NCBI RefSeq assembly: GCF_001678665.1
Contig: NZ_LZRP01000001.1
Coordinates: 558,001 to 622,000, forward strand
Direction: 5' to 3'
From: Erythrobacter sp. QSSC1-22B
GTDB taxonomy: Bacteria > Pseudomonadota > Alphaproteobacteria > Sphingomonadales > Sphingomonadaceae
Length of the DNA: 64,000 nucleotides
Shown here piece after piece: positions 3,819-17,233 of this stretch. A program made the position numbers and the translations under genes. The notes under the pieces were generated by a model. That model was not told the origin of the DNA, searched no databases, and was given only the letters and a program-made list of their open reading frames with translations. Position 1 is the first letter of the stretch, and the number at the start of each line of letters is the position of its first letter.

Positions 3819-5134
3819 GGCGAAACCAGTGCCAGGAAGTCCTCAGCAAGCATCGGCTCGGCGCGCAGGAACCCCTGATAGACCTCGCACCCTTCTCGGG
3901 CGATCAGTGCGCGCTGGGCTTCGGTCTCGACCCCTTCGACGACGACCTTGAGATCGAGCGCCTTGGCCATGGCAACGATGGCGCGGAAGACCGCAAGATC
4001 GCGCCCGTCATCGAGGACTCCCTCGATCATCGAGCGATCGAGCTTGAGATGATCGATCGGCAGCACTTTCAAATATCTGAAATTGCAGAAACCCGCACCG
4101 AAATCGTCGAGCGAGAGGCTGATCCCGGTAGCCTTGAGCTGGTCGAGGACCCCGCTGACTTGCTCGAGATCGGCAAGCAGCACCTGTTCGGTGATCTCGA
4201 GCGTCAGCGAATGCGGATCGATCCCGTTAGTCTCGACCAGCGCGAGAAACTCGCGCGCAAAGCTGCCAGCAGCGAGATCGGCCGGGGTGACGTTGATCGA
4301 AAGCCGCAAATCCTTCGGCCAGGCACGTGCCGCCTCCAGCGCCTTGCCGGCGATATGGCGTGAAAGTTGCGCGGTGTGGTCTGCACGTTCGGCGATGGTG
4401 AACAAGGTCGCGGCGCCGACCCGCCCGAGCACGGGATGATCCCAGCGCGCGAGCGCTTCGGCGCCGATCAGACGGTCGGTTGCGAGCGCATATTGCGGCT
4501 GAAAGCGAATCGAGATTTCATCGTGATCGATCGCCGCAAGCAGATCGGCCTCGAGCTGCTGGCTCGAGCGGCCGTCCTTGGCGAGCTGGCCGCTGGTCCA
4601 CACCACGCGATGGCCGGGCAACGAGCGAATCCGCGCGGATGCCTCGGACAGGGTATCGAGCAGCGACGCGGAGGTATCGCCCTCGACCGCGCGGATCAGC
4701 GCCACCCGCGGCCACAGCCGCAAGCTGTGCCCGGTGTCGGGGTCGCTGATGGGCATGGCAATGGCATCGGCCAGCGCCTCCGCGAGCCACTGCCAGCGCT
4801 CGCGATTGCATTCCTCGCGCAGTGCCAGGAGAAAAGTGTCGCCCGAGCTGCGCGCCGCGATCCACACACCGCTCTCGAGTTCGTCGCCGGCAAAATGGCG
4901 AATCCGCTGGGCGATCTCGATCAGCGCGCCATCGCCGGCGGTCTCGCCGAAGGCGACGTTGACCCGATCGATCCGGCCCACCGAAATCAACATGACATGG
5001 ATCGGGCAACCGCCCCCGCCTGCGGGCCATTCGTGCCACCAGCGATCGAGCGTCTGTCGCGCATGGTCGAGCGTACCGAGACCGGTCAGCCGGTCGCGCG
5101 TATCGTCGTCTGTCGCTGAGGCGAGGCTGGCCAT
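3815..5134 (-). CDS. Degenerate-GGDEF / EAL cyclic-di-GMP phosphodiesterase
   Basis: A 439-residue protein with an N-terminal GGDEF-like domain and a C-terminal EAL domain and no membrane segment. The GGDEF signature is replaced by SGDTF, so diguanylate cyclase activity is unlikely. The EAL domain looks catalytically complete: E-A-L in IGAEALARWDHP, the Asn of NVTPADL, the Glu of LEITE, the DD pair in DDFGAGF, the Lys of KLDRS, the Glu of VVEGVET and the Gln of YQGF. It therefore probably hydrolyses c-di-GMP. The ATG at 5134 is preferred over longer upstream readings because a GGGGGG ribosome-binding sequence lies just before it. Confidence 0.9.
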   Translation of the reverse strand: MASLASATDDDTRDRLTGLGTLDHARQTLDRWWHEWPAGGGGCPIHVMLISVGRIDRVNVAFGETAGDGALIEIAQRIRHFAGDELESGVWIAARSSGDTFLLALREECNRERWQWLAEALADAIAMPISDPDTGHSLRLWPRVALIRAVEGDTSASLLDTLSEASARIRSLPGHRVVWTSGQLAKDGRSSQQLEADLLAAIDHDEISIRFQPQYALATDRLIGAEALARWDHPVLGRVGAATLFTIAERADHTAQLSRHIAGKALEAARAWPKDLRLSINVTPADLAAGSFAREFLALVETNGIDPHSLTLEITEQVLLADLEQVSGVLDQLKATGISLSLDDFGAGFCNFRYLKVLPIDHLKLDRSMIEGVLDDGRDLAVFRAIVAMAKALDLKVVVEGVETEAQRALIAREGCEVYQGFLRAEPMLAEDFLALVSP

Positions 5135-5295
5135 GACCCCCCATATCCGTCGGATCGGAGAAATACGCCAGTAGTTTCCCCGCGTTGCCAAATGGGACGC
5201 CCGCCCATACACACGCGTGCATCCGCACATTTCCACGACGCGGAAGCGCTGCGGCCAGGACGTCCACCCCCAAGCGATCACCACGGGAAAGCTCG

Positions 5296-6075
5296 ATGCC
5301 CAATTTCGAAAAGCTCGCCCTGATCGTCTCGGACACCGACCGCGCGCACGAGGTCGCGCCGATGTATCGCGGCCTGGCCGACTGGGTCCCGCTCGAGGAA
5401 GCCGAGGCGGTCGTGGTCATCGGCGGCGACGGTGCCATGCTGCAGACGCTCCACGCCATGCTCGATTGCGGGATCATCAAGCCGGTCTACGGGGTAAATC
5501 TGGGCACGGTCGGCTTCCTGATGAACCACAACCGCTCGCCCGAAAAGCTGCTCCGCCGGATCGAGCGCGCACGCAGCGTCGCGGTCGCCCCGCTGTGCAT
5601 GGAAGCGGTCCGACAGGACGGAAGCACGCAGGAGTTTTGCGCTATCAACGAGGTCTCGTTGCTGCGCGAAACCCGCCAGACCGCCAAGATCGAGGTCTCG
5701 GTGGACGACAAGGTGCGGATCAAGGAACTGGTCTGCGACGGCGTGCTGGTGGCTACCCCCGCCGGATCGACCGCCTACAACCTCTCGGCCAACGGACCGA
5801 TCCTGCCGCTCGATTCCAGCCTGCTTGCGCTCACCCCCATCAGTCCCTTTCGACCGCGTCGCTGGCGCGGCGCGCTCCTGCCCGACCGCAGCACGATCCG
5901 TTTCCGTGTGCTCGAATCGAACAAGCGCCCGGTCTCGGTCGTCGCCGACCAGAAGGAGGTCCGCGACATCGCCGAGGTCTCGCTTCACATCGCCCGCGAG
6001 CAGGAGCTGCAATTGCTGTTCGATCCCGGCCATGCGCTCGACGAACGCATCGTTGCGGAGCAATTTCTCGTCTGA
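5296..6075 (+). CDS. nadK: NAD kinase
   Basis: A 259-residue NAD+ kinase of the ATP/polyphosphate type, which makes NADP+. The catalytic GGDG motif appears as VVIGGDGAMLQT near residue 43, followed by NLGTVGFLMN and the substrate-binding TPAGSTAYNLSANGPI segment. The ATG at 5296 (MPNFEKLALIVSD) is chosen because the upstream in-frame extension is arginine-rich and unlike the family. It is divergent from the EAL-protein gene, with about 160 bp between them, and is the last host protein gene before tRNA-Asn and the integrated element. Confidence 0.95.
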   Translation: MPNFEKLALIVSDTDRAHEVAPMYRGLADWVPLEEAEAVVVIGGDGAMLQTLHAMLDCGIIKPVYGVNLGTVGFLMNHNRSPEKLLRRIERARSVAVAPLCMEAVRQDGSTQEFCAINEVSLLRETRQTAKIEVSVDDKVRIKELVCDGVLVATPAGSTAYNLSANGPILPLDSSLLALTPISPFRPRRWRGALLPDRSTIRFRVLESNKRPVSVVADQKEVRDIAEVSLHIAREQELQLLFDPGHALDERIVAEQFLV

Positions 6076-6160
6076 TCCCGAACGGCGCGAGAAATCGCGT
6101 CGGGGCCGCTTGCCAAACCCGGTAAGCCCCCATATAGCGCGGCCCTGCCGATCTGGCTGC

Positions 6161-6235
6161 TCCCCGATAGCTCAGCGGTAGAGTAGGTGACTGTTAATCA
6201 CTTGGTCGTTGGTTCGAATCCAACTCGGGGAGCCA
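6161..6235 (+). tRNA. tRNA-Asn (GUU)
   Basis: A 75-nt cloverleaf starting TCCCCGA and ending TCGGGGA-G-CCA, with CCA encoded. The anticodon stem-loop is GGTGA-CTGTTAA-TCACT with anticodon GTT, and the T-arm contains GTTCGAATC. Its 3' end is the left boundary of the integrated element, and the last 14 bases recur at 17220-17233. Confidence 0.95.
6222..6235 (+). repeat. attL core (tRNA-Asn 3' end)
   Basis: The 14-bp sequence AACTCGGGGAGCCA is shared exactly with 17220-17233. The match extends upstream with one mismatch (TCC here, TCA at the right end). It covers the acceptor-stem 3' strand and CCA, so the tRNA stays intact after integration. Confidence 0.85.
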
Positions 6236-6402
6236 ATCAGCACATATAAGATGTTGATTTTGCTCGATAATAGCCAGAACGCAGCCAGCTTGTCCTACAT
6301 TCGTTCCCACATCCGGACCGGGCGCTGGACCCCGCTTTCCACCGCACTAAATTGCGCGCCCTAAGGTCTAGCAGCGGTAGAGCGGAGCATAGCGAACAAG
6401 CC

Positions 6403-6431
6403 AGAGGGCCATCGCTACGCGACAGCCCTCT
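6403..6431. other. Strong stem-loop near the left end
   Basis: Arms AGAGGGC and GCCCTCT are continued inward by ATCGC and GCGAC, allowing G-U pairs, giving about 13 pairs around a three-base loop. No T-run follows on either strand, so it is not a classical intrinsic terminator. It lies downstream of the small minus-strand gene at 6460-6597 and could end that transcript. Nothing else was recognised between the tRNA and that gene. Confidence 0.4.
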
Positions 6432-6459
6432 AACCTTCTAGCTGCAGGAGCGGCTAAAA

Positions 6460-6597
6460 TTAGCTTTCTTGGTTGTTCTTGTCTTGGTTGCGGTCATTGT
6501 TCTGTCCGCTCTGCTGACCGCCCTTTTTCTGGTCGGACTGCTGGTCATCCTGTTTCATTCCGCCTTGCTTGCGGTCTGTATCGTTCTGCTGTTCCAT
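6460..6597 (-). CDS. Small Gln/Asn/Asp/Lys-rich hydrophilic protein
   Basis: A 45-residue reading frame beginning MEQQNDTDRKQGG and ending NNQES, with almost no hydrophobic residues. Its ATG is preceded by AGAGAGGAATCTATC, a convincing ribosome binding site. The composition suggests an intrinsically disordered protein; no function can be assigned. It lies between the portal-operon terminator and attL, so it would need its own promoter and may be cargo of the element. An accidental reading frame remains possible, but the good ribosome site and biased composition argue against it. Confidence 0.55.
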   Translation of the reverse strand: MEQQNDTDRKQGGMKQDDQQSDQKKGGQQSGQNNDRNQDKNNQES

Positions 6598-6791
6598 GAT
6601 AGATTCCTCTCTCTTGGTTAGCCTCCCAATTAACCAAGCGACAAGCCACGGTTTGGTTTCGCGATTTTCGGCTCCTAGGTGGAGCCCTCTGCCGAAGTGT
6701 TCTCAAAATCCGCTAAAGTGGGGCGCAGAAAAGCCGAGCGGGAATCGATCCGCGACCATATTGATAAGGCGAGGCGCTGGCACTCTCGGGC

Positions 6792-6817
6792 AAAAGAAAC
6801 CCCCGCCGAAGCGGGGG
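6792..6817 (-). terminator. Intrinsic terminator after the head-gene operon
   Basis: On the minus strand the stem CCCCCGC-TTCG-GCGGGGG is followed directly by TTTCTTTT. It lies about 100 bp beyond the portal stop codon and would end the capsid-protease-portal transcript. The rest of the 6598-6917 gap holds no gene I can support. Confidence 0.85.
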
Positions 6818-6917
6818 CCAAGGTGCGTGGAGTGACAACCGGGTCGCAAGGTTTCACTTGGCGAGACCTAGTCAGCAATTGTGACAACATCATGCCAAAC
6901 CGCACGATAGTTTAGCC

Positions 6918-8063
6918 TCAAGCCGCTGCTCGCGGGTTCCATCCCTCGATCTGGCGCACCTCGTCCGCGTCCAGCACACCCGCTTCAATCGCGATCTTAT
7001 GCGCATTCCAGCGGGTCTCAGGATCGCCGCGCAGGAAGCCGGATAGATCAAGTTCAAGCTCAAGATTGCTGCCAGCGGCGAAAACCGTCCGGGCGAACTC
7101 GCTTTCGATCCTGCGCGCCCACGGGGCGAGGCAGAAGGTCGCGAACCATAGGCCCGCCTGCGCGGCATTCGTGAATGTGTTGTTTTCGTATGCTTGAATG
7201 ATCGGCGGTGGCACCTGATACAGTCGGCAGATTTCGATCACGCCAAACTTGCGGGTTTCCAGTAGCTCGGAATCCTCCGGGCTCATGCTGATGCTCTGCC
7301 ATTTCATCCCGCTTTCAAGGATGATCGGTCGCCCTGCATTACGGGCGCCCATGAACTTTTCGGCAAGCTGACTGCGCAGGCTCGCCACGTTGGCAGGGTC
7401 GATCTTGCTATCGGACTGCAGCGCGCCGCTGGGTGCTGCGCCATTGGCGAGGAAGGACCGCGCCCATTCATCCGCCGCGCGAACGCCCGCCACAGTTTCG
7501 CCAGCACGGGCAATCCGGCTTTTGCCGACAATGCCATCATCGGTACGCTCGCGCAGGTGGAGAACTTCGCCTTCCAACAAACGCCGGGTGCGCAGGCCAT
7601 CGTTTACATCATAGGCCAGCCGCCCGCTGCGAAGCTGCGAAACAGTCACTTGCTGCCATGGAATCCAGCGAAGGCCGGTCACGCGGCCATTGGCGGCGCG
7701 CTCGATCTGCGCCAGCCCGTTGCCGGTCAGCAGCGTCGAGGCTACAAGATGCTCAAAGAACTCGGGCCACGTCATGCGGCTGTTGACGCCGCCAGCGAAC
7801 AGGGAGCGCAGCGGGTGGTTTGTCACCTCAAGCCGCGTTCCATCCGACTGCCTGCGATAGACGTACGCGGGGACGTAGGCGAGCGCCGAACTAATGGCGC
7901 CCACGCAAGCCGAAATCGCGGAAAGCTGTTCCGCCTGCCGCGCGCTGGTCGCGGTGGTCGCGCCAACGCCGGGGGATAGCGCCAGCCATGAAGCATCGGT
8001 GGGGCTTGCATCGGATCGGATTTCGAGGCCCATAAGGCCAAGGGTGCGGGTCAGGAGTCCCAC
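6918..8063 (-). CDS. Phage portal protein (HK97 family)
   Basis: A 381-residue HK97-family portal, the dodecameric ring at the capsid vertex through which DNA enters. Family features visible are the N-terminal SAISACVGAISSALAYVPAYVYRR stretch in two parts, LLTGNGLAQIER, the central substrate-like segment AAPSGALQSDSKID, and FGVIEICRLYQVPPPIIQ in the C-terminal half. The start is a GTG at 8063 with GGAG about 8 nt upstream, inside the protease gene, which it overlaps by 13 bp, implying translational coupling. It is the last gene of the head operon; in most HK97-type phages the portal comes before protease and capsid. Confidence 0.93.
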   Translation of the reverse strand: MGLLTRTLGLMGLEIRSDASPTDASWLALSPGVGATTATSARQAEQLSAISACVGAISSALAYVPAYVYRRQSDGTRLEVTNHPLRSLFAGGVNSRMTWPEFFEHLVASTLLTGNGLAQIERAANGRVTGLRWIPWQQVTVSQLRSGRLAYDVNDGLRTRRLLEGEVLHLRERTDDGIVGKSRIARAGETVAGVRAADEWARSFLANGAAPSGALQSDSKIDPANVASLRSQLAEKFMGARNAGRPIILESGMKWQSISMSPEDSELLETRKFGVIEICRLYQVPPPIIQAYENNTFTNAAQAGLWFATFCLAPWARRIESEFARTVFAAGSNLELELDLSGFLRGDPETRWNAHKIAIEAGVLDADEVRQIEGWNPRAAA

Positions 8064-8614
8064 TGGGCAGTCTCCGCTAGGATAAGGACCCGGCGCCGCC
8101 GCGCAGCTTCACAGCCGTTCTGGAAGGCGCGCAGGGCAATCTCGGTGTCAGGGTAAGCAGGCCAGGCGCTAACGACTGAAATCTCGCGCAGGCCGATTGT
8201 GGTCAGGCTGCGCTTGCGGCCCTCCCAACGCTCGCCGCCATCGGGGATATTGAAGCCAAAGCTCATACCGCCAAGGTCGTCGCGCTCTGCCAATGCCAGA
8301 ACGTCCCGGCCCGCTTGCGTGTCAGGAATTGAGAGGTCGAACGACAGACCCCGGCTATCCTCTGCCAAGCGCAGGGTGCCGGATCGGGTGCGGCCAAGGA
8401 CCTTGCCCATATCGTGATCGTAGAGGGCCAGAATATCGCCCGTTAGTGCGGCGCGGAAGGCACCCGGCTCTATCGTTTCCACGAAGGAACCTAAGTCCGC
8501 TTCCGCGCCGAACGTGGCAGCGTAACCTTCAATCCGGCGGGCGCCATAGTTGGCGCGAATCTCGGTGAAGGCCCGCCGCTCGATGGCGGCGCTAAGGGGG
8601 GCAAGCGCCGCCAT
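8051..8614 (-). CDS. HK97-family prohead protease
   Basis: A 187-residue serine protease of the HK97 prohead (S78) family, which trims the capsid scaffold before expansion. The candidate catalytic His is in ALYDHDMGKVLGR and the Ser in LGGMSFGFNIPD, with the usual RRIEGYAATF start and LREISVVSAWPAYPDTEIALR end. Length is normal. It starts 3 bp after the capsid stop and overlaps the portal start by 13 bp, so capsid, protease and portal form one coupled unit. Confidence 0.93.
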   Translation of the reverse strand: MAALAPLSAAIERRAFTEIRANYGARRIEGYAATFGAEADLGSFVETIEPGAFRAALTGDILALYDHDMGKVLGRTRSGTLRLAEDSRGLSFDLSIPDTQAGRDVLALAERDDLGGMSFGFNIPDGGERWEGRKRSLTTIGLREISVVSAWPAYPDTEIALRAFQNGCEAARRRRVLILAETAQWDS

Positions 8615-8617
8615 ATC

Positions 8618-9832
8618 CTAGACGATCACACCAGTTGCCGCAGAGAACGACGCAGGGCGCCGTACAGCGAAATCGACCGTCGCCATCGCGCGAATCAAAA
8701 GATTGCCTTTAGAGTACGCGCTTTCCGCATAGGGATTTACCAGAACGTCGAGCTGGCTCCAAACGCCGATCAAGAAATCACGCCAGTCGCCATAGATCAG
8801 CGCGTGTTCGTCGGTGCCCGCGCCAAGGTCGTTAGGCGCTTGATTGGTGAAGCGGACCGGCTCGCTATGGAACGTGTCGGCCATGCTGATCGGGCGACCA
8901 TCCAAGTCCCGCAATTTCATCGCATCGGCCTTGATGCCGTTGGTCGCGAGGAAGCTGCGCGTGTCAGCCACGTTGGCAAGGTCAGCCGCAGCGATCATGT
9001 CGGCAGTCGTGGTGAACAAGTCCGTATCGAATGCCACGGTCGGGACGCCCGGATCGTTCAGGATGCCTCGCGGCTCCGCTCCGGTCCCGCTGCCATTGAT
9101 AGCCGCCCGGTCGATTTCGAGCGCAATGTCGCGCGCGAGCATGTTCCGCAGCAGGCGTTCAATGTCCGGGCTCGACTGCATCACCATCTGGCGCGAGAAC
9201 TCGCTCAGGCCCCCAACGTGGTGCGGGCTGAGGCTCACAGTGTCGAACGAGGCATCGCTGGTCGAAAGCGCCTCATTTTCGTTCACCCATCCCACATTCG
9301 GGGAGCCGGTCTCGCGGGGCAGGATGACATCGCCGGTCAGGCCGGTCAGGACGGTCGCGCCCATCTGGCTCATCACCGTCGAATTTGTCAGCGCATTGAT
9401 GAACTGTTCCGGGCGGTAGTCATCGCTGACAATCTGCCCGTTGGAGGCGGTGGTGCCCACGCGGGTCTCAAGTGCCTCAGTCGGCACGTAGAAGCCCTCG
9501 GCAGGCTTACCAGCGCGGCGCTGAAGCTCTGCCTGCATTTCGATCTCGCGGCCCGCGTCCACGTCGAAGCCGCAGCGGTGTGCGATCATCTTGCGAATGC
9601 TGAAATCGCGGTAGGCAGCGCGAAGCTGGGGGTCGGTTTCACCGTGGATCGGCTCGCCTGCCTCAAGGCGCTCGGCATTCTCAATTGCCTGCGCCCGCTT
9701 GATCTTGGCGTCTAGGCCGCGCCATTCGGTCTCCGCAGTCGCGAAAGCGGATTGATCTTCCGCCCCGTCCGCAGTTTTCATCCGGTCGTGCGCGGCTGCG
9801 CGCTGTTCCTGCAATTCGTGAAGTTTGGTCAA
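8618..9832 (-). CDS. HK97-family major capsid protein
   Basis: A 404-residue HK97-fold capsid precursor. The N-terminal roughly 100 residues are charged and helical (TKLHELQEQRAAAHDRM onwards), like the delta scaffolding domain removed by the prohead protease. The mature part contains the family's VVPTEALETRVGTT-like region, the GDVILPRETG segment, FSRQMVMQSSPDIERLLRNML, GSGTGAEPRGILN and a C-terminal YGDWRDFLIG strand. The start is a TTG at 9832 with GGAG 7 nt upstream. It is the first gene behind the promoter at 9906-9947. Confidence 0.93.
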   Translation of the reverse strand: MTKLHELQEQRAAAHDRMKTADGAEDQSAFATAETEWRGLDAKIKRAQAIENAERLEAGEPIHGETDPQLRAAYRDFSIRKMIAHRCGFDVDAGREIEMQAELQRRAGKPAEGFYVPTEALETRVGTTASNGQIVSDDYRPEQFINALTNSTVMSQMGATVLTGLTGDVILPRETGSPNVGWVNENEALSTSDASFDTVSLSPHHVGGLSEFSRQMVMQSSPDIERLLRNMLARDIALEIDRAAINGSGTGAEPRGILNDPGVPTVAFDTDLFTTTADMIAAADLANVADTRSFLATNGIKADAMKLRDLDGRPISMADTFHSEPVRFTNQAPNDLGAGTDEHALIYGDWRDFLIGVWSQLDVLVNPYAESAYSKGNLLIRAMATVDFAVRRPASFSAATGVIV

Positions 9833-9905
9833 TTCAAGTCTCCGTTGTTGTTGCCAAGGGACTTGAAGCGAAAGGCCGCCCGTTCCCTTAATCCGGCCAA
9901 TGCGA

Positions 9906-9947
9906 ATTATACAGGAACGGACTGCCTTAATCTCAGCGCGTATTAAC
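9906..9947 (-). promoter_or_regulatory. Promoter of the head operon with shared 26-bp box
   Basis: On the minus strand a perfect -10 hexamer TATAAT (9906-9911) lies 74 bp before the capsid start. Exactly 10 bp upstream begins a 26-bp box (9922-9947) that recurs with two mismatches at 12499-12524 before the packaging genes, at the same distance from a -10. There is no good TTGACA -35; the box covers that position and contains the dyad TTAAT-N10-ATTAA, suggesting an activator site. Confidence 0.65.
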
Positions 9948-9964
9948 GGAGACGGTCGTTTGTT

Positions 9965-11560
9965 CTACAGAACGTGGATCGAGTCAGCCGTAATGTAGGA
10001 CTCTGGTTTTTGCGTAGCTGCCAAGCCGCAGGCCATTATTGCGGCGACGATCCCGTCTGTTTTGTCGAGAGACTTATTTTTCGAGGGTTTTCGGTTTCCG
10101 GCGGCATCTGTCTCGACCATCGTGTTGCCAGCCTGCCAGCGCAGGAGCGGATTGCCATTGTGGCGCAGCTTGCCGGTCAATAGCGCGGTCTCGAAGGAAT
10201 CGACCGCCGGGGCGAAGCTGCGAAACCCTTGCACAAATTCGACCATCGGCAGGTCGATGCCTTCGTCGGAAAGCATCTTTTTCAGCCGCTCGATCTGCCA
10301 GCGGTCATAGGCAATCCCGCGAATGTCAAAGCGTCCGCGAACGTCTGCGATCTTCAGCAGGATTGCCAAGTCGTCGCGCGCATTGCCGTTGGTCGCCTCG
10401 GCCCATCCCTCGGCTATCCACTGACCATAGGGCACCCGGTCCTTTTCGGCCCGCTTGGCGACGGTATCGGAAGGAATCCAGTGCCACGAAAGCAGCTTGC
10501 CCTCGCCGGGAAAATACAAGGCTAGGCTGGTTAAATCGCGGGTGCTGCCAAGGTCGAGCCCGCCGTAACATTCGCAACCTTCCAAGGTCTCAATGTCGAA
10601 GGGCTCGCCATTGGCGTCCCACTCACCCTGCTCGATGAAGCGGCCCTCGGCTGCGATCCGCTGGTTAAGCTGTAGAAGTCTGAAACTAGGCTCGAACGAA
10701 GGGGACCGGATCGCCCGCGCCGCTGCGTCGGCAAATTGATCCTCATTCAAAAAATCACCCAGCGCGGGATTGGCAGCCGCCCACGCCTCGGGGTCATCCA
10801 GTGCGCAATCGTCGGGTGCCGCGTGAAGCTGGGTGTAAACTGTAGGCGTCGGCTCGGCATCCAGCATTTCGCTGAAAAAATGGAGATCGTCCGCCGCCTG
10901 GGTGGAGATTGTCACACCTAGCGCCGATGCCCGCTTGCCCATGCCGGTGGCGAGATTGTCCCACAGGTCCCGGCTGCGCCATTGCGCAACCTCATCCGCA
11001 ATCCAAAACGAGGGTGCTAGGCCATGCGCCTTGCGCGCGTCGGCTGTCAGGGCTCGCCAGCGCGATTGCGTCTCCACGTCTGTGATCGTCTTGTTGTATT
11101 CCTTAATCTCGACGCGCGCAGCCATCCACGGGGTCGCTTCGATAAAGGCCCGCGTTTGATGATATAAAACGCTCGCTTGCTCACGGTCCAAGGCTGAAGC
11201 ATAAATTTCGCCGTAGGGCTCAGCACAAGGTCCGATTAAATGCGCGAGGGATAGACCGCTCAGAACGGCGGATTTCCCATTACCCCTTGCGCAGCTTAGC
11301 GCCGCCAATCGCACTAGGCGCTCGCCATCCTCATCGCGGGGGCCATAAACGCCCCGGACGAATTGCTTTTGAAACTCTAGCAGGCGCAGGTTTTCACCCG
11401 CCTTCAGGCCCATGACAATTGGCAGTGTTTCGAGGAAGGCGATCACCCGCTCGGCTTCGGGCATCCCGACCTTTTCCCACGGGTGGGCAGTCTGGGCCGC
11501 TTCGTCATATGATCGCGCCGCTGCGCGCAAGCGCTTATCGCCGGGACCGCGAACGCCCAT
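9965..11560 (-). CDS. Phage terminase large subunit
   Basis: A 531-residue terminase large subunit of the TerL family with an HNH partner. The N-terminal ATPase has a Walker A-like SCARGNGKSAVL and a Walker B in FWIADEVAQW. The C-terminal nuclease has the acidic motifs GGLDLGSTRDLTSL, IAYDRWQIERLKK and KTDGIVAAIMA. It would pump DNA into the element's own heads. Its ATG overlaps the stop of the HNH gene by one base (TAATG), so the two are coupled. No separate small terminase lies in the usual position just upstream. Confidence 0.95.
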   Translation of the reverse strand: MGVRGPGDKRLRAAARSYDEAAQTAHPWEKVGMPEAERVIAFLETLPIVMGLKAGENLRLLEFQKQFVRGVYGPRDEDGERLVRLAALSCARGNGKSAVLSGLSLAHLIGPCAEPYGEIYASALDREQASVLYHQTRAFIEATPWMAARVEIKEYNKTITDVETQSRWRALTADARKAHGLAPSFWIADEVAQWRSRDLWDNLATGMGKRASALGVTISTQAADDLHFFSEMLDAEPTPTVYTQLHAAPDDCALDDPEAWAAANPALGDFLNEDQFADAAARAIRSPSFEPSFRLLQLNQRIAAEGRFIEQGEWDANGEPFDIETLEGCECYGGLDLGSTRDLTSLALYFPGEGKLLSWHWIPSDTVAKRAEKDRVPYGQWIAEGWAEATNGNARDDLAILLKIADVRGRFDIRGIAYDRWQIERLKKMLSDEGIDLPMVEFVQGFRSFAPAVDSFETALLTGKLRHNGNPLLRWQAGNTMVETDAAGNRKPSKNKSLDKTDGIVAAIMACGLAATQKPESYITADSIHVL

Positions 11561-11952
11561 TAGCCAAGCCCCGGTTTAGTTACATTTGCAACAACAAACT
11601 TAGCGTGTTTATTCCCCGGCGGGCTGCGATCCCTTAGCCCTGAGCGATTTCCTGCCCACGGGTGCGACGGGTCGAGCGGATTGCCCTGCGCATCGCAGCC
11701 CTTCATCGGTCGGTCGGTCGAGACTGCGCCCGCTTCCGGGCCCCGCGCAGTCTTACGCGAGTGACAGCTAGGACAGTATGAGGCCAAGCCATCATGCGAC
11801 GGGAACGGGTCTCCGCCTTGGCTTATGGCCTGAACGTGGTCCACGTGGCTGGCAACCGTTGGCATGGGGCATCCTCGGCATAGCGGCTCGATCTGTAGAT
11901 GCACCTTACGCAGCCTGCGCCAGCGGGCGGTGTGATAGGGCCACTCACTCAC
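11560..11952 (-). CDS. HNH endonuclease, packaging-associated
   Basis: A 130-residue HNH nuclease with the layout common next to HK97-type terminases: CRGCPMP, then HVDHVQAISQGG, then YCPSCHSRKTA, giving zinc-binding cysteines and the catalytic His. Such proteins assist TerL in cutting at cos ends in several phages and satellites. The C-terminus carries KGCDAQGNPLDPSHPW, a motif echoed in the upstream 167-residue protein. The start is a GTG at 11952 overlapping that gene by 8 bp; the stop overlaps the terL ATG. Confidence 0.92.
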   Translation of the reverse strand: MSEWPYHTARWRRLRKVHLQIEPLCRGCPMPTVASHVDHVQAISQGGDPFPSHDGLASYCPSCHSRKTARGPEAGAVSTDRPMKGCDAQGNPLDPSHPWAGNRSGLRDRSPPGNKHAKFVVANVTKPGLG

Positions 11953-12448
11953 CCTTGGGATTCCTGATGGGCGGGGGAAGCGGCAGTTCGTGTCCGTCGA
12001 TCATCCGCTTTTTGCGTGTCACCTTCACCGGGTCGGAAGGTGTGCCGCGCGGGCGGAACTTCGGTGGTATATCGCTATATTCTTCTCTAGCAGCCGCAAG
12101 GTTTGCCGGGTGTAAGGGGTGGGTAGGCCAGCCGTTTACATCGCATCCGCGATAGGGGTGCAGCACAAGGTCGGGGTCGCCGCCAAGGTCCATAAAGCTT
12201 TTCTTCGCCAGTTCGGTCAGGTCATCCCTGATCCCGCGGTCAGCAAACCGGATTGCACACTGCCGGTCGGTGTAGTGATGCACAGTCGGCAGGTTGGCGC
12301 GTACTGTATGGGTCGAGGCGAAGCGCAGGAGGGTGCATCCCTCGAATACGTAACTGCCATCCTCGCAGTCAAAATAGGCCAGGACTTGCGTGTTGCTCGT
12401 GCCAACGTCCAGCAGCAGGCGCATATCGGTAATGGTCAGTTCGGGCAT
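11945..12448 (-). CDS. Unknown protein at the head of the packaging operon
   Basis: A 167-residue protein I do not recognise. It begins MPELTITDMRLLLDVG, has a mixed central part with scattered Cys (YFDCEDGSYVFEGCTLL) and a basic, proline-rich tail. Residues near 119-134 read YRGCDVNGWPTHPLHP, resembling the KGCDAQGNPLDPSHPW tail of the adjacent HNH protein. It has a clear ribosome site (AAAAGGAACGATAA) and is the first gene after the promoter at 12483-12524, followed by HNH and terL. Its position suggests a role in DNA packaging or cutting, possibly taking the place of a small terminase; that is inference from context only. Confidence 0.7.
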   Translation of the reverse strand: MPELTITDMRLLLDVGTSNTQVLAYFDCEDGSYVFEGCTLLRFASTHTVRANLPTVHHYTDRQCAIRFADRGIRDDLTELAKKSFMDLGGDPDLVLHPYRGCDVNGWPTHPLHPANLAAAREEYSDIPPKFRPRGTPSDPVKVTRKKRMIDGHELPLPPPIRNPKGE

Positions 12449-12482
12449 TTATCGTTCCTTTTATTTAATTGTTTCCACCTCT

Positions 12483-12524
12483 AGTCTAACAGCCATCGCT
12501 GCCTTAATCTTAGCGCGTATTAGC
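12483..12524 (-). promoter_or_regulatory. Promoter of the packaging operon with shared 26-bp box
   Basis: On the minus strand a -10-like TAGACT (12483-12488) is preceded, after exactly 10 bp, by a 26-bp box (12499-12524) identical at 24 of 26 positions to 9922-9947. The box overlaps the 3' end of the small HTH gene. The identical box-to-hexamer spacing in two places is the main evidence that this is a regulated promoter. Confidence 0.65.
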
Positions 12525-12723
12525 CGGTATGGTCGCCTGCGTTACGTAACTGCGCGTCAATATTGGCAAAGTGTTCGTTGAGCCCGGTCTTGCGAGCGCA
12601 TACAATTTTGCCTAGCTTGAAGGTCGGTATCTGGTCGGTATCGTGAAGGTGTTGCGCCTGCCTCGGGGTTATCTCCAAGAACTTGGCGACCCGCTTCAAT
12701 CCATACAGTAGATCGTTGTTCAT
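12520..12723 (-). CDS. Small helix-turn-helix DNA-binding protein
   Basis: A 67-residue protein with an excisionase/MerR-like helix-turn-helix: YGLKRVAKFLEITPRQAQHL then a wing-like IPTFKLGKIVCARKTGL. It has a good ribosome site (AAGGATCAACTAAG) and lies between the iteron array and the packaging operon. It could be a regulator of the two box promoters, an excisionase, or a small terminase-like DNA binder. None of these can be decided from the sequence, but its place just upstream of the late genes makes a regulatory role attractive. Confidence 0.7.
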   Translation of the reverse strand: MNNDLLYGLKRVAKFLEITPRQAQHLHDTDQIPTFKLGKIVCARKTGLNEHFANIDAQLRNAGDHTG

Positions 12724-12743
12724 CTTAGTTGATCCTTGGTTCG

Positions 12744-12892
12744 GTCAGTGTGGTCAGTGAAGTCAGTGATCTGGCATTATCTTTTCACGCCCTTTCCCGC
12801 GTGTACGCTTTGCCATTTCTAAGTTATTGGTTTTCCTTGTTTTTAGATTAGAGACGCAATGGCGGATCACTGACTTCACTGACTTCACCTAC
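12744..12892. other. Candidate replication origin: inverted iteron arrays around an AT-richer spacer
   Basis: The left array has three tandem 9-bp units, GTCAGTGTG, GTCAGTGAA and GTCAGTGAT (12744-12770). The right array has the same units in inverted orientation, GTAGGTGAA, GTCAGTGAA and GTCAGTGAT on the minus strand (12892-12866). Together they contain a perfect 19-bp inverted repeat, GTCAGTGAAGTCAGTGATC (12753-12771 and 12865-12883), separated by 93 bp that are visibly AT-richer than their surroundings. The site abuts the 3' end of the SF3 helicase gene. Paired iterons around AT-rich DNA beside a replication gene are how known phage satellite origins are organised. An operator for the HTH gene is the alternative. 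Confidence 0.6.
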
Positions 12893-14300
12893 CGACCAGC
12901 CGCTCGGCAGCGGCGATCTGGTCATGGGGGGAGAGGGTTTTGCGCGCATAGACAACGCAGCGGCGGCCACTGACCTTGTGCAAGCCATCAACGGCGTGTC
13001 GGTTGCGAACGACTGCGTATCCGCATTCCTCAAGCCGGTGCGGGATCTTCCGGCTGTTGCGCCGGTCGCAAAGCCATTCCGCGAAGCCGGGGGGAGCAAC
13101 GCTAACAATGTGGGAGATCGTGACTGCGCTGGGCCACGCGAGGGTTTCGAGCGCATCGGCAAGCTCTGCGTCCTCGGGTGCCTGATTGGCCGCAACGATA
13201 TCCCAGAAGGCTTTGGTTTTGAGCGGGGGAGACTTGGCGTCGAACTTGTCGAGCGGCAGTTCGCGCAGATAGGCCGCAACGTGCCCTAGCCCGCCCTGCC
13301 CGTACCAGCCGTACAGTTCCGACCAGTATTCAGCCGGGAAGCTTTCGCGGTCGAGATTAGACCATGCAACGTAATGGCGCCGGTCGTCCGCTGGCAGGTA
13401 GATGCCATCGGTCTTGTGATTGCTCGTGATAATCACGCCGCAAACGTTGAAAACCGAATGCTCGCGCAGGTGTTTTTCATCGACGCGCAGCACGTCCGGC
13501 GGCGCGGCGGTGTAGGTTTTCATGTGATCGTAGAAGCTGAAGCGGTCCACGTCGCCCAAGTCGCGAGCCTCGCTAACGCGAAGGATCACGGATTTGACGA
13601 AACCATTGAATCGCCCAAGCAAGTGCTGGGGGGAAACTTCGGCAAAGTTCCACGGGCCGATCGCGAGCTTCACCGGCTCTAGGATCGAGTCCTTTCCGAT
13701 GCCCTGCGCGCCGCCCATGACAATCGCGTGATTGACCTTCTCGGCAGGCTTTTGGACCCGGTGCGCCATCCACGAAATCAGGTGATCGGCGTCCTCGGGA
13801 TAGACCCTGCGAACATGCTCGACCCAGCGGCCCGCCTTCTTTGCATCGCCGGGGGTTTCGACCGGCGGGCGGTACAGATTAAAGATGTTGCAGCCCTTGC
13901 GGTCGATCCATCCGCCATCGGAAACCAGCCGGTCGGCGATCACCTGCTCTTGTCCCGGCGCCCACGTCATCTGCTCGACCGCACGGTTTTCATCCAACCA
14001 TACGCTTGCCCGCTGCTCGACCGGATTGCCCTTCTTGTCGCAAACAGGTTCACCGCGGCGATTGAGCAAGGGGATCGGCTTGATCCGGGAATTTACGCTC
14101 GTGGCGGGCCACAGTTCGCCGCTGGGTGCGAAAATGTAGTTATGGCTCGGCATGTAGGCGCGGAAGTCATCGACCCCCACGCCGCCGCTCTTGGGTGCTG
14201 AGCGGGTGTCGTCCGAACCGTCGCGTTCACGATCCAGCTTTGCCATTCGCTCGTCGTACTGGCGCTCCAAGTCTGCCATGCGCTCGTCGGGATCAAGCAT
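12885..14300 (-). CDS. SF3-type replicative helicase (DUF5906-like)
   Basis: A 471-residue protein with a superfamily-3 helicase core of the phage D5/primase-associated kind. Walker A is GGAQGIGKDSIL (residues 196-207) and the sensor-like motif is CGVIITSNHKTDG, followed by the arginine-containing PADDRRHYVAW. The N-terminal part shows no recognisable primase domain. The C-terminal roughly 80 residues look like a winged-helix DNA-binding segment and could recognise the iterons just downstream. The start overlaps the previous gene by 8 bp (ATGCTTGA). It presumably unwinds the element's origin. Confidence 0.85.
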   Translation of the reverse strand: MLDPDERMADLERQYDERMAKLDRERDGSDDTRSAPKSGGVGVDDFRAYMPSHNYIFAPSGELWPATSVNSRIKPIPLLNRRGEPVCDKKGNPVEQRASVWLDENRAVEQMTWAPGQEQVIADRLVSDGGWIDRKGCNIFNLYRPPVETPGDAKKAGRWVEHVRRVYPEDADHLISWMAHRVQKPAEKVNHAIVMGGAQGIGKDSILEPVKLAIGPWNFAEVSPQHLLGRFNGFVKSVILRVSEARDLGDVDRFSFYDHMKTYTAAPPDVLRVDEKHLREHSVFNVCGVIITSNHKTDGIYLPADDRRHYVAWSNLDRESFPAEYWSELYGWYGQGGLGHVAAYLRELPLDKFDAKSPPLKTKAFWDIVAANQAPEDAELADALETLAWPSAVTISHIVSVAPPGFAEWLCDRRNSRKIPHRLEECGYAVVRNRHAVDGLHKVSGRRCVVYARKTLSPHDQIAAAERLVGR

Positions 14301-14604
14301 CGGAGACCTCCCGCAACAGGAGGGTCATTTCTTCGGCCTGCATGGCAGTCAGCATCAGCCGCTTCGACAGCAGGTTCAGCTTATCCAGCCATTCGACCGG
14401 CGCGTCCGCGTAGAGGTTCGGGGTGGCGTACTCGACCACAAGCCAAGCAAGCTGGCGGGCCGTGTCGCATTCGGTGCTGGCGATCATGCCGCTGGCAGCG
14501 TTACGATAGGACCGCAGCTTGGCGCGGCGCTCATATTCCTCGGCGGGAATGTGGCCCATGAACGTGTAGATTTCGTCGGGTTTGATAGCGGTTTGAGCGT
14601 TCAC
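14293..14604 (-). CDS. Small unknown protein upstream of the helicase
   Basis: A 103-residue, mainly helical protein (NAQTAIKPDEIYTF, then EEYERRAKLRSYRN, then LLSKRLMLTAMQAEEMTLLLREV) without recognised motifs. The GTG at 14604 is chosen over a longer upstream reading because it overlaps the preceding stop as GTGA and has GGGAGG about 9 nt before it. The 3' end overlaps the helicase start by 8 bp. The tight coupling suggests a replication accessory, but no function can be assigned. Confidence 0.65.
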   Translation of the reverse strand: MNAQTAIKPDEIYTFMGHIPAEEYERRAKLRSYRNAASGMIASTECDTARQLAWLVVEYATPNLYADAPVEWLDKLNLLSKRLMLTAMQAEEMTLLLREVSDA

Positions 14605-14801
14605 GATTCCGGCCCTCCCACATATTCGCAGCCGTTGTAGTGCGCGAAGGTCAGGGCGAAGCGCAGCGCGTTCCACCAGTTGTCGAACTGGATGTAAGTC
14701 GCGCCGCCGGGATCATCGAGCGGCATGACAAAGGCGACCGGGCGGCCTGCCTGGGTGTAGGTCCAGCCGGTCTGGGTATCGCAGATTTCGCCCACGATCA
14801 T
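14601..14801 (-). CDS. Small unknown protein (66 aa)
   Basis: A 66-residue protein beginning MIVGEICDTQTGWTYTQAG, rich in aromatic residues (WTY, FDNWWNALRFAL, AHYNGCEY). The ATG at 14801 has GAGGTG 6 nt upstream and overlaps the stop of the preceding small gene as ATGA; its own stop overlaps the next start as GTGA. This four-gene relay supports it being translated. Function unknown. Confidence 0.6.
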   Translation of the reverse strand: MIVGEICDTQTGWTYTQAGRPVAFVMPLDDPGGATYIQFDNWWNALRFALTFAHYNGCEYVGGPES

Positions 14802-14956
14802 GCCGTCACCTCGCGGTGCGCATCGGACCACAGCAACGCCGCGAGGCGCAGGCGCATGGCCGCATTCGCTTGAATTTTGGGGCGGGTTGAGGTAGAGAAG
14901 GTGCGTTCGCCGCCAAGCAGAACAGCGCCTTCCCTTGCGGGGAGGCGTTTCTGCAT
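14798..14956 (-). CDS. Very small basic protein (52 aa)
   Basis: A 52-residue frame beginning MQKRLPAREGAVLLGGER, basic and Arg/Ala-rich toward the end (MRLRLAALLWSDAHREVTA). The start codon overlaps the alpA stop by one base (TAATG) and the stop overlaps the next ATG (ATGA). These exact overlaps on both sides are the evidence that it is a gene. No family recognised. Confidence 0.55.
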   Translation of the reverse strand: MQKRLPAREGAVLLGGERTFSTSTRPKIQANAAMRLRLAALLWSDAHREVTA

Positions 14957-15147
14957 TAGGCTTTCTCCATCCGCTCAGCGATCAGGCGGGCGATGTAGGC
15001 TTCGATTTCACTTTCGGGCCAAGTGTTAATAGCGCCGTGCTTAATGGGCCGGGGGAAATTGCCCGACGCCACTTCCTGATAGATTTTCGATTTTCTCCAG
15101 CCGACGCGATCCTCGACCGCTTCAAGCCGCAATAGACGTTCCGACAT
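14956..15147 (-). CDS. alpA: AlpA-family transcriptional regulator
   Basis: A 63-residue DNA-binding protein of the phage AlpA family (MerR-like helix-turn-helix): LLRLEAVEDRVGWRKSKIYQ, then VASGNFPRPIKHG with the conserved FPRPIK turn, and WPESEIEAYIARLIAER. The ATG at 15147 is preceded by AGGAAAGGATGG; a longer upstream reading lacks support. In enterobacterial satellites AlpA is the activator that switches on the island, and it can also act as an excisionase. Here it heads the chain of small genes leading to the helicase, consistent with an early regulator. Confidence 0.88.
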   Translation of the reverse strand: MSERLLRLEAVEDRVGWRKSKIYQEVASGNFPRPIKHGAINTWPESEIEAYIARLIAERMEKA

Positions 15148-15205
15148 TTGCCATCCTTTCCTGTATGGAATTGAATGGCAGACCATCTATAGGTAGTGCG
15201 GGTGT

Positions 15206-15886
15206 CTAATCGCTAGGTTTAGACGCCTTTTTGTAGAATGCGTTGCGAAACGTGCTTTCGCTTCCCCACTCAGGCCGACGCATGGCCGCAATACGAAACG
15301 CATCGCGGTTGCCCTTGCCCCGCTCGGTTTTGATTTCCTCAATCAGAGCGAGACGATCTGCATCATCAGCCTTGCGCGTCGAGACTGCGCTTTCACTCCA
15401 TTTGCGACCCCGTAGCGCATCGGCTTCCCAATTCTGCTTTAGGTTCCGCTTCGCCCATTTGTTTCCTAGGTGAAACCCGTGAAGGGCAACTTCGGTTGTA
15501 TTTCCGTCCTGCATATGGCGTCTCAGCCAAATCAGGTCGCAGAGCATCCCAGCGGCGAAACCCACTGTGCTATCGTATTCATACCCCCGCCTTTTCACGA
15601 CAGTAGAGACATCGTTGCAAACGCTCCAACCTCGTGGGATTCCAAAGATACCGTAGGGCGGTGGCGGTCGCTCAAATGACCAATTTCCCGACTCGTCGCA
15701 GAAATAAGAACAATGCCGGTCCGGGAGGTCATTGGCGCTCATTATGGCAAAGCATTCTCGCTCAATTTGAGCGCAAAGCCCTTCGATTGTTAGCCGCTCG
15801 ACAGCCTCGGCAGCATCAGGATCGTCGTAATTATAGACCCGCTCGCGCGTGATCCCCGAACCTAGATATTTTGGGCCGCTATCCAT
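15206..15886 (-). CDS. Unknown protein between integrase and alpA
   Basis: A 226-residue soluble protein beginning MDSGPKYLGSG, with a central Cys/Trp-containing region (RHCSYFCDESGNWSFERPPPP, shown in part) and a basic C-terminal third (EEIKTERGKGNRDAFRIAAMRR in part) that could bind nucleic acid. The ATG at 15886 overlaps the integrase stop region by 8 bp. I recognise no family. It may be an accessory or defence-type cargo gene, or an unusual regulator. Confidence 0.65.
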   Translation of the reverse strand: MDSGPKYLGSGITRERVYNYDDPDAAEAVERLTIEGLCAQIERECFAIMSANDLPDRHCSYFCDESGNWSFERPPPPYGIFGIPRGWSVCNDVSTVVKRRGYEYDSTVGFAAGMLCDLIWLRRHMQDGNTTEVALHGFHLGNKWAKRNLKQNWEADALRGRKWSESAVSTRKADDADRLALIEEIKTERGKGNRDAFRIAAMRRPEWGSESTFRNAFYKKASKPSD

Positions 15887-17060
15887 GGAGCGCCACCACG
15901 TTATCAACGCCGCTCGACAGGGCCGGTGCCGCGTATGCGGTCCACGCATCCATCAGCGCCCGCCTATGGGCGCGCAGGTCGGTTCGCAGATAGGCCCGCT
16001 CGGTCGCATCGCCCACGGTGTGCGCCAGCGCCATCTCTGCCACGGCATAGGGAACATTTGGCATCCGCTCTGCCGCCCAATCGCGAAACGTCGAGCGGAA
16101 ACCATGCACGGTTTCGGTCCGCCCGCTATCGCGCAGCATTTTGCCCAGCGCCGCATTCGACAGCACCTTGCCGCGCAGGCTGGGGAATATCAGGCCCTCG
16201 GTTCCGAACAGCGCCGCCGCCCGGTCCAATATCGCCAGCGCCGCATCATTGAGGGTAATGGTGTGGGGCTTGCCGTTTTTCATAATCTCGCCGGGCCGCT
16301 TCCACTCGCGATCCTCGCGGTCGATCTGCCGCCACTCAGCAAACCGAACCTCGCCCGATCTAGCCGCCGTGAATATCGTGAACAGCACCGCTAGGCGCGC
16401 AGGTGAATCCGCTTTGGCCAATTCGGCTGCGATATAAGCAGGAAGTTCCTTATAGGGCATTGCTCGAAAGCCTTTGCTCTCCGGCTGCTTGGCCAGCCCG
16501 TCCGTGATCTCTTTTGCCAGCGGCACTGGCGATGTCCGCCACCCGCGCGATTTTGAGAACGCCAGCACCTGATTTATCCGGTGCCGCACCTTGCGCGCGA
16601 TCTGGGGTTTCTCGTTCCAAATCCTCGCCAGCGCGGCAGTGACGTGTTCCGTCTCGATCATGTCCACCTTGTGCTTACCCAGCGTTGGCAGGGCATGGGT
16701 TGTCAGGCTCGACAGGAATTGAGCGCCGGTCTTGTCTCCCCAGCCCTTGCCCAGCTCGTCATGGGTGCGCTGCATTGCCTCAGCGAAGGTCGGCACCTTA
16801 GTCTTGTTCTTGTCCCGCTCGGCTATCGGGTCGCCACCCGTCAGTGCGACCTTACGAAGCGCAGCGGATTTCTCGCGCGCCTCCGCCAATGTGAGGATAT
16901 CGGTGGACCCTAAGCCGATGTCGCGCCGCCGCCCGTCATATTGGACGCGCAAAACCCAGGATTTCGCGTTGTCGTTTTTGACCCTCAGCAGCAGCCCCTT
17001 GCCGTCGATATAGACGCCCGGTTTTGCCCGTTGAACTTCTTTTGCAGTTAGCTTGCCCAA
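15879..17060 (-). CDS. int: Tyrosine-type integrase (P4-like, DUF4102 N-terminus)
   Basis: A 393-residue site-specific recombinase. The N-terminal domain KLTAKEVQRAKPGVYIDGKG is the arm-binding DUF4102 module. The catalytic domain shows Arg in TAARSGEVR, HxxR in VHGFRSTFRDW, a His in LAHTVGD and the nucleophile Tyr in ERAYLRTD. The reading starts at a TTG (17060) preceded by GGAAAGATGG; no in-frame ATG lies nearby. It is about 160 bp from the attR repeat, the normal place for an integrase using a tRNA 3' end. Confidence 0.95.
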   Translation of the reverse strand: MGKLTAKEVQRAKPGVYIDGKGLLLRVKNDNAKSWVLRVQYDGRRRDIGLGSTDILTLAEAREKSAALRKVALTGGDPIAERDKNKTKVPTFAEAMQRTHDELGKGWGDKTGAQFLSSLTTHALPTLGKHKVDMIETEHVTAALARIWNEKPQIARKVRHRINQVLAFSKSRGWRTSPVPLAKEITDGLAKQPESKGFRAMPYKELPAYIAAELAKADSPARLAVLFTIFTAARSGEVRFAEWRQIDREDREWKRPGEIMKNGKPHTITLNDAALAILDRAAALFGTEGLIFPSLRGKVLSNAALGKMLRDSGRTETVHGFRSTFRDWAAERMPNVPYAVAEMALAHTVGDATERAYLRTDLRAHRRALMDAWTAYAAPALSSGVDNVVALHG

Positions 17061-17219
17061 TGTGGAGCCATCTTTCCGTTACAACACTATTTCCCACACT
17101 TAGACGTGGATTTGGACGGTTGTCAATGGAACAGTATGGATAAGGTATCAGACCTAAGCCTTAGTGAAGCCTAGCGTTTTTGGACATTTATGGAAGGGTG
17201 TGGAAAGGCCCCAGTTTCA

Positions 17220-17233
17220 AACTCGGGGAGCCA
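17220..17233 (+). repeat. attR core
   Basis: AACTCGGGGAGCCA, an exact copy of the tRNA-Asn 3' end at 6222-6235. It marks where the element stops and host DNA resumes. The 17061-17315 gap otherwise holds only the integrase upstream region, with no further gene seen. Confidence 0.85.

Follow-up and report, generated by a model that had tools for sequence, protein, structure and literature searches.

A tail-less island at a tRNA-Asn gene of Erythrobacter sp. QSSC1-22B is very probably a head-building phage satellite

A stretch of 64,000 nucleotides from Erythrobacter sp. QSSC1-22B (contig NZ_LZRP01000001.1, positions 558,001–622,000; the window) carries an island of 11,012 bp at window positions 6222–17233, between a tRNA-Asn gene and a TauE-like gene. 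The 14-bp attachment (att) core present at both ends is the 3' end of the tRNA-Asn itself. The G+C content of the island is 59.6%, as compared to 65.4% in the window outside it, and its predicted coding density is 87%. All of the named island genes are long open frames on the minus strand (Table 1). In the direction of transcription they encode an integrase, an orphan protein, an AlpA regulator, two small proteins, a DUF5906 helicase, an excisionase-like protein, a SpoVG-like protein, an HNH endonuclease, the terminase large subunit (TerL), the capsid, the protease and the portal. A first-pass annotation, made from the DNA letters alone, had named the integrase, att repeats, AlpA, superfamily 3 (SF3) helicase, HNH, TerL and the three head genes, all of which were recovered; it did not mention that the integrase gene sits at the island end distant from the tRNA-Asn. 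It had also stated that tail, lysis and repressor genes are absent, and no such family matched the island proteins. In particular, leaving aside the three head proteins (capsid, protease, portal), a Pfam scan of the remaining ten gave no tail, lysis or terminase small subunit (TerS) family.

Table 1. Features of the island and its target gene, in window coordinates.
Feature	Position	Strand	Evidence or remark
tRNA-Asn (GTT), integration target	6161–6235	+	ARAGORN; Rfam tRNA
attL core, 14 bp, at tRNA-Asn 3' end	6222–6235		AACTCGGGGAGCCA
Possible small Gln/Asn/Lys-rich open reading frame (ORF), ~45 aa	6460–6597	-	read in minus-frame translation
Element without recognised gene, 3' of portal, terminator-like hairpin at its end	6798–6915	-	hairpin is our reading
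Portal protein, HK97 type	6918–8063	-	phrog_12, E 2.4e-91; TIGR01537
Prohead protease	8051–8614	-	phrog_80, E 5.1e-51; TIGR01543
Major capsid protein, HK97 fold, TTG start	8618–9832	-	phrog_617, E 4.6e-68; TIGR01554
TerL, ATPase and nuclease	9965–11560	-	PF20441, E 1.2e-37; PF03354, E 4.9e-14; phrog_9, E 7e-121
HNH endonuclease, abuts TerL	11560–11952	-	PF01844, E 7.2e-6
SpoVG-like domain protein	11945–12448	-	AlphaFold model and Foldseek
Small excisionase/helix-turn-helix (HTH)-like protein	12520–12723	-	phrog_18541 (unknown function); homologues in loci L051, L052, L054, L056, L067
SF3-type (DUF5906) helicase	12885–14300	-	DUF5906, E 9.4e-10
Conserved small protein (longest frame 14293–14676)	14293–14604	-	64% identical to a protein of island 2
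Small orphan protein	14601–14831	-	no family; no homologue in loci compared
AlpA regulator	14956–15186	-	PF05930, E 1.9e-7
Orphan protein, up to 247 aa, start uncertain, frame overlaps integrase	15206–15949	-	no match
Tyrosine integrase, TTG start	15879–17060	-	PF00589/PF13356/PF22022; 66% identical to the L271 integrase beside tRNA-Asn
attR core, 14 bp	17220–17233		AACTCGGGGAGCCA

Eighteen genomes of the same genus were searched for the corresponding site, and 16 of them contained the flanking TauE-like gene. In 10 of these 16, the tRNA-Asn lies 15–58 bp from the TauE-like gene with no island between them, as compared to 11,081 bp in the studied genome. Because such empty sites exist in same-genus genomes, the island is an insertion. 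In the remaining six genomes the tRNA-Asn is either 10–19 kb from the TauE-like gene (four genomes) or not found within 20 kb of it (two). Since a related integrase, or a fragment of one, lies between the two genes in three of these six, the site is apparently a hot spot for integration.

The capsid was used to collect relatives. Among 298 genomes of the family, 12 of the 297 apart from the studied one held 13 further loci with 49–70% identity, and 26 more gave weaker matches. A capsid-profile scan of one genome per species gave 74 genomic loci which, judged by record title, are mostly from Alphaproteobacteria but also from beta- and gammaproteobacteria and a few metagenome-assembled genomes (MAGs) labelled otherwise. 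Gene order could be scored in 73 of them, L082 being omitted because it lies at a contig end and has no capsid ORF call. The counts below refer to these profile-scan loci only, some of which are duplicated among the family-genome loci (L036/L062, L047/L080). The capsid gene is upstream of the portal gene in 72 of 73 loci, the exception being L123, a Chloroflexi MAG with the phage order. TerL is upstream of the capsid in 38 loci (including L123) and downstream in 20. An integrase gene lies at most 4 kb downstream of the portal in 40 of the 73, and the gap between the two is at most 615 bp in 32 of the 40 and at most 313 bp in 18. Because these gaps are so short, the portal-integrase layout leaves no room for a tail module at that place. 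Head genes followed by a tail module in relatives, the observation that the first-pass annotation had set against its own reading, were not found as a rule; among the loci inspected, the one clear tail gene adjoining this head module is a tape measure gene at L080.

A scan of viral contigs supplied 313 relatives, and the best 80 of the 313 have a median length of 10.2 kb, with one above 15.5 kb. When ORFs outside the core set were compared to PHROGs, replication proteins or unknowns were found among the 25 commonest families of each set. The scan of large ORFs covered 61 of 104, mainly from alphaproteobacterial loci (best 25 of 121 families), and that of medium ORFs covered 103 of 158 (best 25 of 95 families).

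Descent of the head genes was assessed with a quick maximum-likelihood tree of 86 capsids, in which six phages, chosen by us from match lists, were included. The window capsid falls in a clade of 53 rows (SH-aLRT 92) that holds none of the six phage rows. A second clade of 23 rows (support 99) holds the beta- and gammaproteobacterial elements. Of the phages, HK022 groups with the capsid of another island in the studied genome (island 2, described below), and the other five are placed with L120 and L123. A capsid search of 50,697 phage records returned 204 matches, all below 60% identity and, among the 25 matches listed, at or below 34%. Within this sample, the island head genes are shown to belong to a lineage of seemingly tail-less elements that stands apart from the phages compared. 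Similar reasoning from capsid phylogeny appears in a report on a Vibrio element (PMC13230959).

The ratio of nonsynonymous to synonymous change (dN/dS, NG86 method) for HNH, TerL, capsid, protease and portal against L051, L061 and L062 ranges from 0.08 to 0.39; these values are rough because dS is 0.8–2.2, near or beyond saturation, but they fit purifying selection. TerL is 78% identical to that of L051 and 47% identical to that of L061, and the capsid is 74% and 73% identical, respectively. By these identities, the modules are mosaic across relatives.

The island was compared to known satellites and phages. Capsid-forming phage-inducible chromosomal islands (cf-PICIs) are said to need only the tail of a helper phage. 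A locus of E. coli strain EDL933 (NZ_CP008957, 1680329–1694760), which we take to be the cf-PICI EcCIEDL933 from its position and gene set, the record not carrying that name, has the order integrase, HTH, DUF927 replication gene, capsid, protease, portal, head closure, connector, HNH, TerS, TerL. This presumed EcCIEDL933 shares with the window an integrase, an AlpA-like HTH gene, a replication gene, the capsid-protease-portal order, HNH, TerL and the lack of tail genes, with portal, protease and TerL 31%, 42% and 29% identical. Unlike the window, it has a TerS (P27), a head closure protein and a head-tail connector; its terminase genes lie 3' of the head genes, whereas TerL is 5' of them in the window. 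Its capsid is only weakly related to that of the window (profile E 2e-6) and sits on a long branch in the tree. PMC11389934 describes EcCIEDL933 as mobilised by HK106 and HK446.

HK97-type phages such as HK022 are complete phages with the order TerS-TerL-portal-protease-capsid, unlike the window, and their TerL, portal and protease are 38%, 29% and 30% identical to those of the island. The island does not qualify as a complete HK97-type prophage, no tail or lysis family having been found among its proteins with Pfam and PHROGs. The first-pass annotation had pointed out that the head order is not that of HK97-type phages and had proposed a satellite resembling cf-PICIs. Both points are borne out, the same order occurring at the EDL933 locus and in nearly all relatives, and the cf-PICI-like reading remains the best one. 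With cf-PICIs the island has in common TerL and HNH, an integrase and an AlpA-type regulator, the capsid-protease-portal order and the absence of tail families; it lacks head-tail connectors and TerS. PMC10690885 words the cf-PICI family as including connectors and both terminase subunits, and PMC10803314 gives a mean size of 14 kb and a list of primary hosts from which Alphaproteobacteria are absent. By its gene content the island thus falls outside cf-PICIs in the strict sense and is a reduced, cf-PICI-like variant; the "-like" is kept on account of the missing TerS and head-tail connectors.

Other satellites resemble the island in part. The cf-PISP TG54 of Vibrio crassostreae (PMC13230959) has a tail-less head and packaging set, as in the window, and is classed as a satellite by capsid phylogeny. 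Unlike the window, it is plasmid-like and has no integrase, with a tyrosine recombinase between portal and adapter and a head-tail adapter and closure protein. The Streptomyces phage satellites MulchRoom and MiniFlayer also carry their own capsid and packaging genes, and a helper tail is inferred for MulchRoom, but their helpers are virulent and no significant homology to cf-PICIs is reported for them (PMC10690885). PICMI, as outlined in PMC10803314, has an integrase, AlpA, a primase (DUF3987 and DUF5906) and a Fis regulator, and is integrated at fis. Identity with PICMI was considered and rejected: the island has integrase, AlpA and DUF5906, no Fis or DUF3987 match was obtained in the ten proteins scanned, and the site is tRNA-Asn. 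No satellite paper naming Sphingomonas or sphingomonads was found in the openly licensed PMC literature.

The absence of TerS and connectors was examined further. TerS was sought among the island proteins with Pfam, PHROGs and NCBIfam (not every protein against every library), and none was found. In the island, HNH and TerL abut, with no TerS between them, a point missing from the first-pass annotation. Of 36 loci with TerL before the head genes (TerL-first), 34 have HNH and TerL no more than 121 bp apart, the exceptions being L107 (412 bp) and L123 (528 bp); in all 19 of 19 loci with TerL after them (TerL-last), the distance is 209–523 bp. Because of this spacing in 34 of 36 loci, the lack of a TerS beside TerL characterises, on gene positions, the TerL-first type, which is mainly alphaproteobacterial, and is not a defect of one island. 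The content of the gap was viewed in two TerL-last loci from beta- or gammaproteobacteria: L095 has a 153-aa gene, which we read as TerS by position, and L106, with the smallest gap (209 bp), has no gene on that strand. The HTH genes that relatives carry between TerL and capsid were considered as TerS substitutes and rejected: 16 were aligned with a mean column identity of 19%, one gave a sub-threshold MerR match alone, and the window has no gene at that place. DNA choice in TerL-first elements could depend on a helper TerS, an unrecognised TerS, or HNH acting with TerL. Connectors, on which the first-pass annotation was silent, gave no signal in six frames of window 6236–6960 (best profile E 0.1). 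The stretch between portal and tRNA-Asn is about 680 bp, and connectors (PF05135, PF05521) exist in the relative L052.

These results suggest that the island is, very probably, a reduced cf-PICI-like element, a phage satellite that assembles its own head, loads it with DNA and depends on a helper phage for everything else. Its tails, and here also the neck that joins head to tail, are probably borrowed from the helper. In the presence of an active tailed helper, AlpA-linked expression and the integrase would excise a circle of about 11.0 kb, which the SF3 helicase would replicate with host or helper enzymes. Capsid, protease and portal would assemble procapsids, and TerL with HNH would cut the DNA and package it in a cos-like manner. 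Neck connectors, tail, lysis and possibly TerS would come from the helper.

A variant compatible with this satellite reading is that all cf-PICI parts are present, with TerS and connectors hidden among the orphans. Three small or orphan genes and the SpoVG-like gene, which lack an assignment, leave some space for it. It is rather unlikely, given that no TerS family was found in the ten proteins (Pfam) or the small proteins scanned (PHROGs), that the connector search gave no signal, and that HNH and TerL are so close in 34 of 36 TerL-first loci.

A decayed prophage that has lost its tail, lysis and repressor genes would also lack TerS and connectors, and no activity of the island is known. In keeping with decay, the helicase homologues of L272 and L280 align with the window helicase only from their residues ~265–273 onward; by our reading, the N-terminal part missing in the window holds a Toprim-like motif. 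Decay of this kind is nevertheless improbable, since a single non-phage head order recurs across many taxa, the integrase often follows directly behind the head module, the window's capsid clade contains none of the six phages, and the frames are open and conserved. A domesticated or gene-transfer-agent (GTA)-like head cassette serving the host, to which head genes without lysis genes might point, is extremely improbable in view of the integrase, the att cores in a tRNA, the empty site in relatives, the few family genomes with strong capsid relatives and the absence from the genome of PF13550, which we take as a marker of GTA-type tails.

Several observations weigh against the satellite reading. 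Excision, particles, transfer and the helper are predicted from the island's genes, and the missing TerS and connectors could mean lost function rather than deeper parasitism. No helper was found in the island's own genome with the tail families phrog_8462, PF13550 and PF04865. Among the scored relatives, TerL was not found within 8 kb of the capsid in 15 of 73, in some of them because the contig ends, and 33 of 73 have no integrase within 4 kb past the portal, so that the gap test covers 40 loci only. Support for the capsid clade (92) falls short of the 95 that the program sets as its mark, and L120, which has the satellite-like order, groups with phages. The tape measure gene of L080 lies beside head genes at a locus where no TerL was found; although both PHROG sets contained it, it is not among the 25 commonest families of either, and those tallies can therefore miss single tail genes. 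In the case of L051, the nearest relative, and its near copy L052, the portal is followed by connectors and DUF6950, a family also present in the tail region of phage CRP-823; as these contigs end soon after, a tail module may lie beyond.

By the capsid survey, the lineage is broad and mainly alphaproteobacterial, and it extends head-making satellites to Alphaproteobacteria, which the host list of PMC10803314 does not include. It suggests a graded series, from elements with no TerS beside TerL, through some without connectors, to some loci with no TerL in view, and the helper's contribution could therefore be worked out part by part. The island is an 11-kb system for asking whether TerL and HNH can select DNA without a TerS of their own, and whether a neck of foreign origin can be joined to the portal of a satellite.

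Further observations concern related loci. At the TauE-like gene of one same-genus genome (L262, genome G306, 1276–6327), HK97-type head genes in the phage order TerL-portal-protease-capsid lie less than 20 kb away; an AlpA-like gene adjoins the TauE-like gene, and no tRNA-Asn is present within 20 kb. In another genus (L271, genome G259, 6909–16124), an island sits at a tRNA-Asn with NAD-kinase-like and SecA-like flanks; its integrase and AlpA are 66% and 63% identical to those of the window, and its capsid is of the island 2 type. Three Lysobacteraceae loci, L111, L113 and L127, have an integrase, a large ORF and the capsid, protease and portal genes, but TerL was not found within 8 kb, the large ORF being helicase-like by profile in L111 only; such elements may depend on a borrowed terminase as well. 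Five sphingomonad loci (L268 6617–9262, L269 5712–7727, L270 5399–7246, L080 6281–8059 and L050 13668–16289) have a tape measure gene next to a capsid gene. BLAST with a few TerL and portal proteins gave no match in the 18–20 kb examined for L268–L270. Putative tmp genes are mentioned for some cf-PICIs and PLE-like elements in PMC12987554.

Two minor proteins of the window island were considered individually. The product of 12520–12723 is, by our reading, of HTH type. For 11945–12448, the AlphaFold model has a mean pLDDT of 66 and its top three Foldseek matches are SpoVG (best E 0.028, probability 1.00); this low-confidence model makes a SpoVG-like, nucleic-acid-binding regulator probable, if weakly so.

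Island 2 lies outside the window in the same genome (genome G000, contig 1, 155818–165002; L035 5818–15002). It is 9.2 kb long, is bounded by a 49-bp perfect repeat with the 3' part of a tRNA-Arg (CCT), and carries an integrase, an AlpA-like gene, a primase-helicase, a protease and a capsid gene, with no recognised terminase or portal. Genome-wide, PF04860 (portal) and PF20441 (TerL nuclease) match the window island only, and PF03237 gives no match. The capsids of the two islands belong to different tree groups. PADLOC gave no defence match for ten proteins of the two islands, and a defence role was dropped on that account.

The two islands share an element of about 120 bp (window 6798–6915 and L035 13920–14033, 93% identical) that directly follows the last head gene of each. 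Its core has no exact match in the viral contigs. Among the 298 family genomes, only the two copies of the studied genome match along the element; there is no full-length copy in the 297 others, seven of which match 21–32 bp at the terminator end. No Rfam family was matched at the gathering threshold. The RNA fold z-score is -2.76, but no RNA is claimed because the terminator hairpin contributes to this value. That the genome holds two satellites of falling self-sufficiency, with the element as a shared packaging or regulatory site and island 2 partly a satellite of a satellite, is a long shot. The element itself may act as a packaging site or terminator region, or be the trace of a recombination event.

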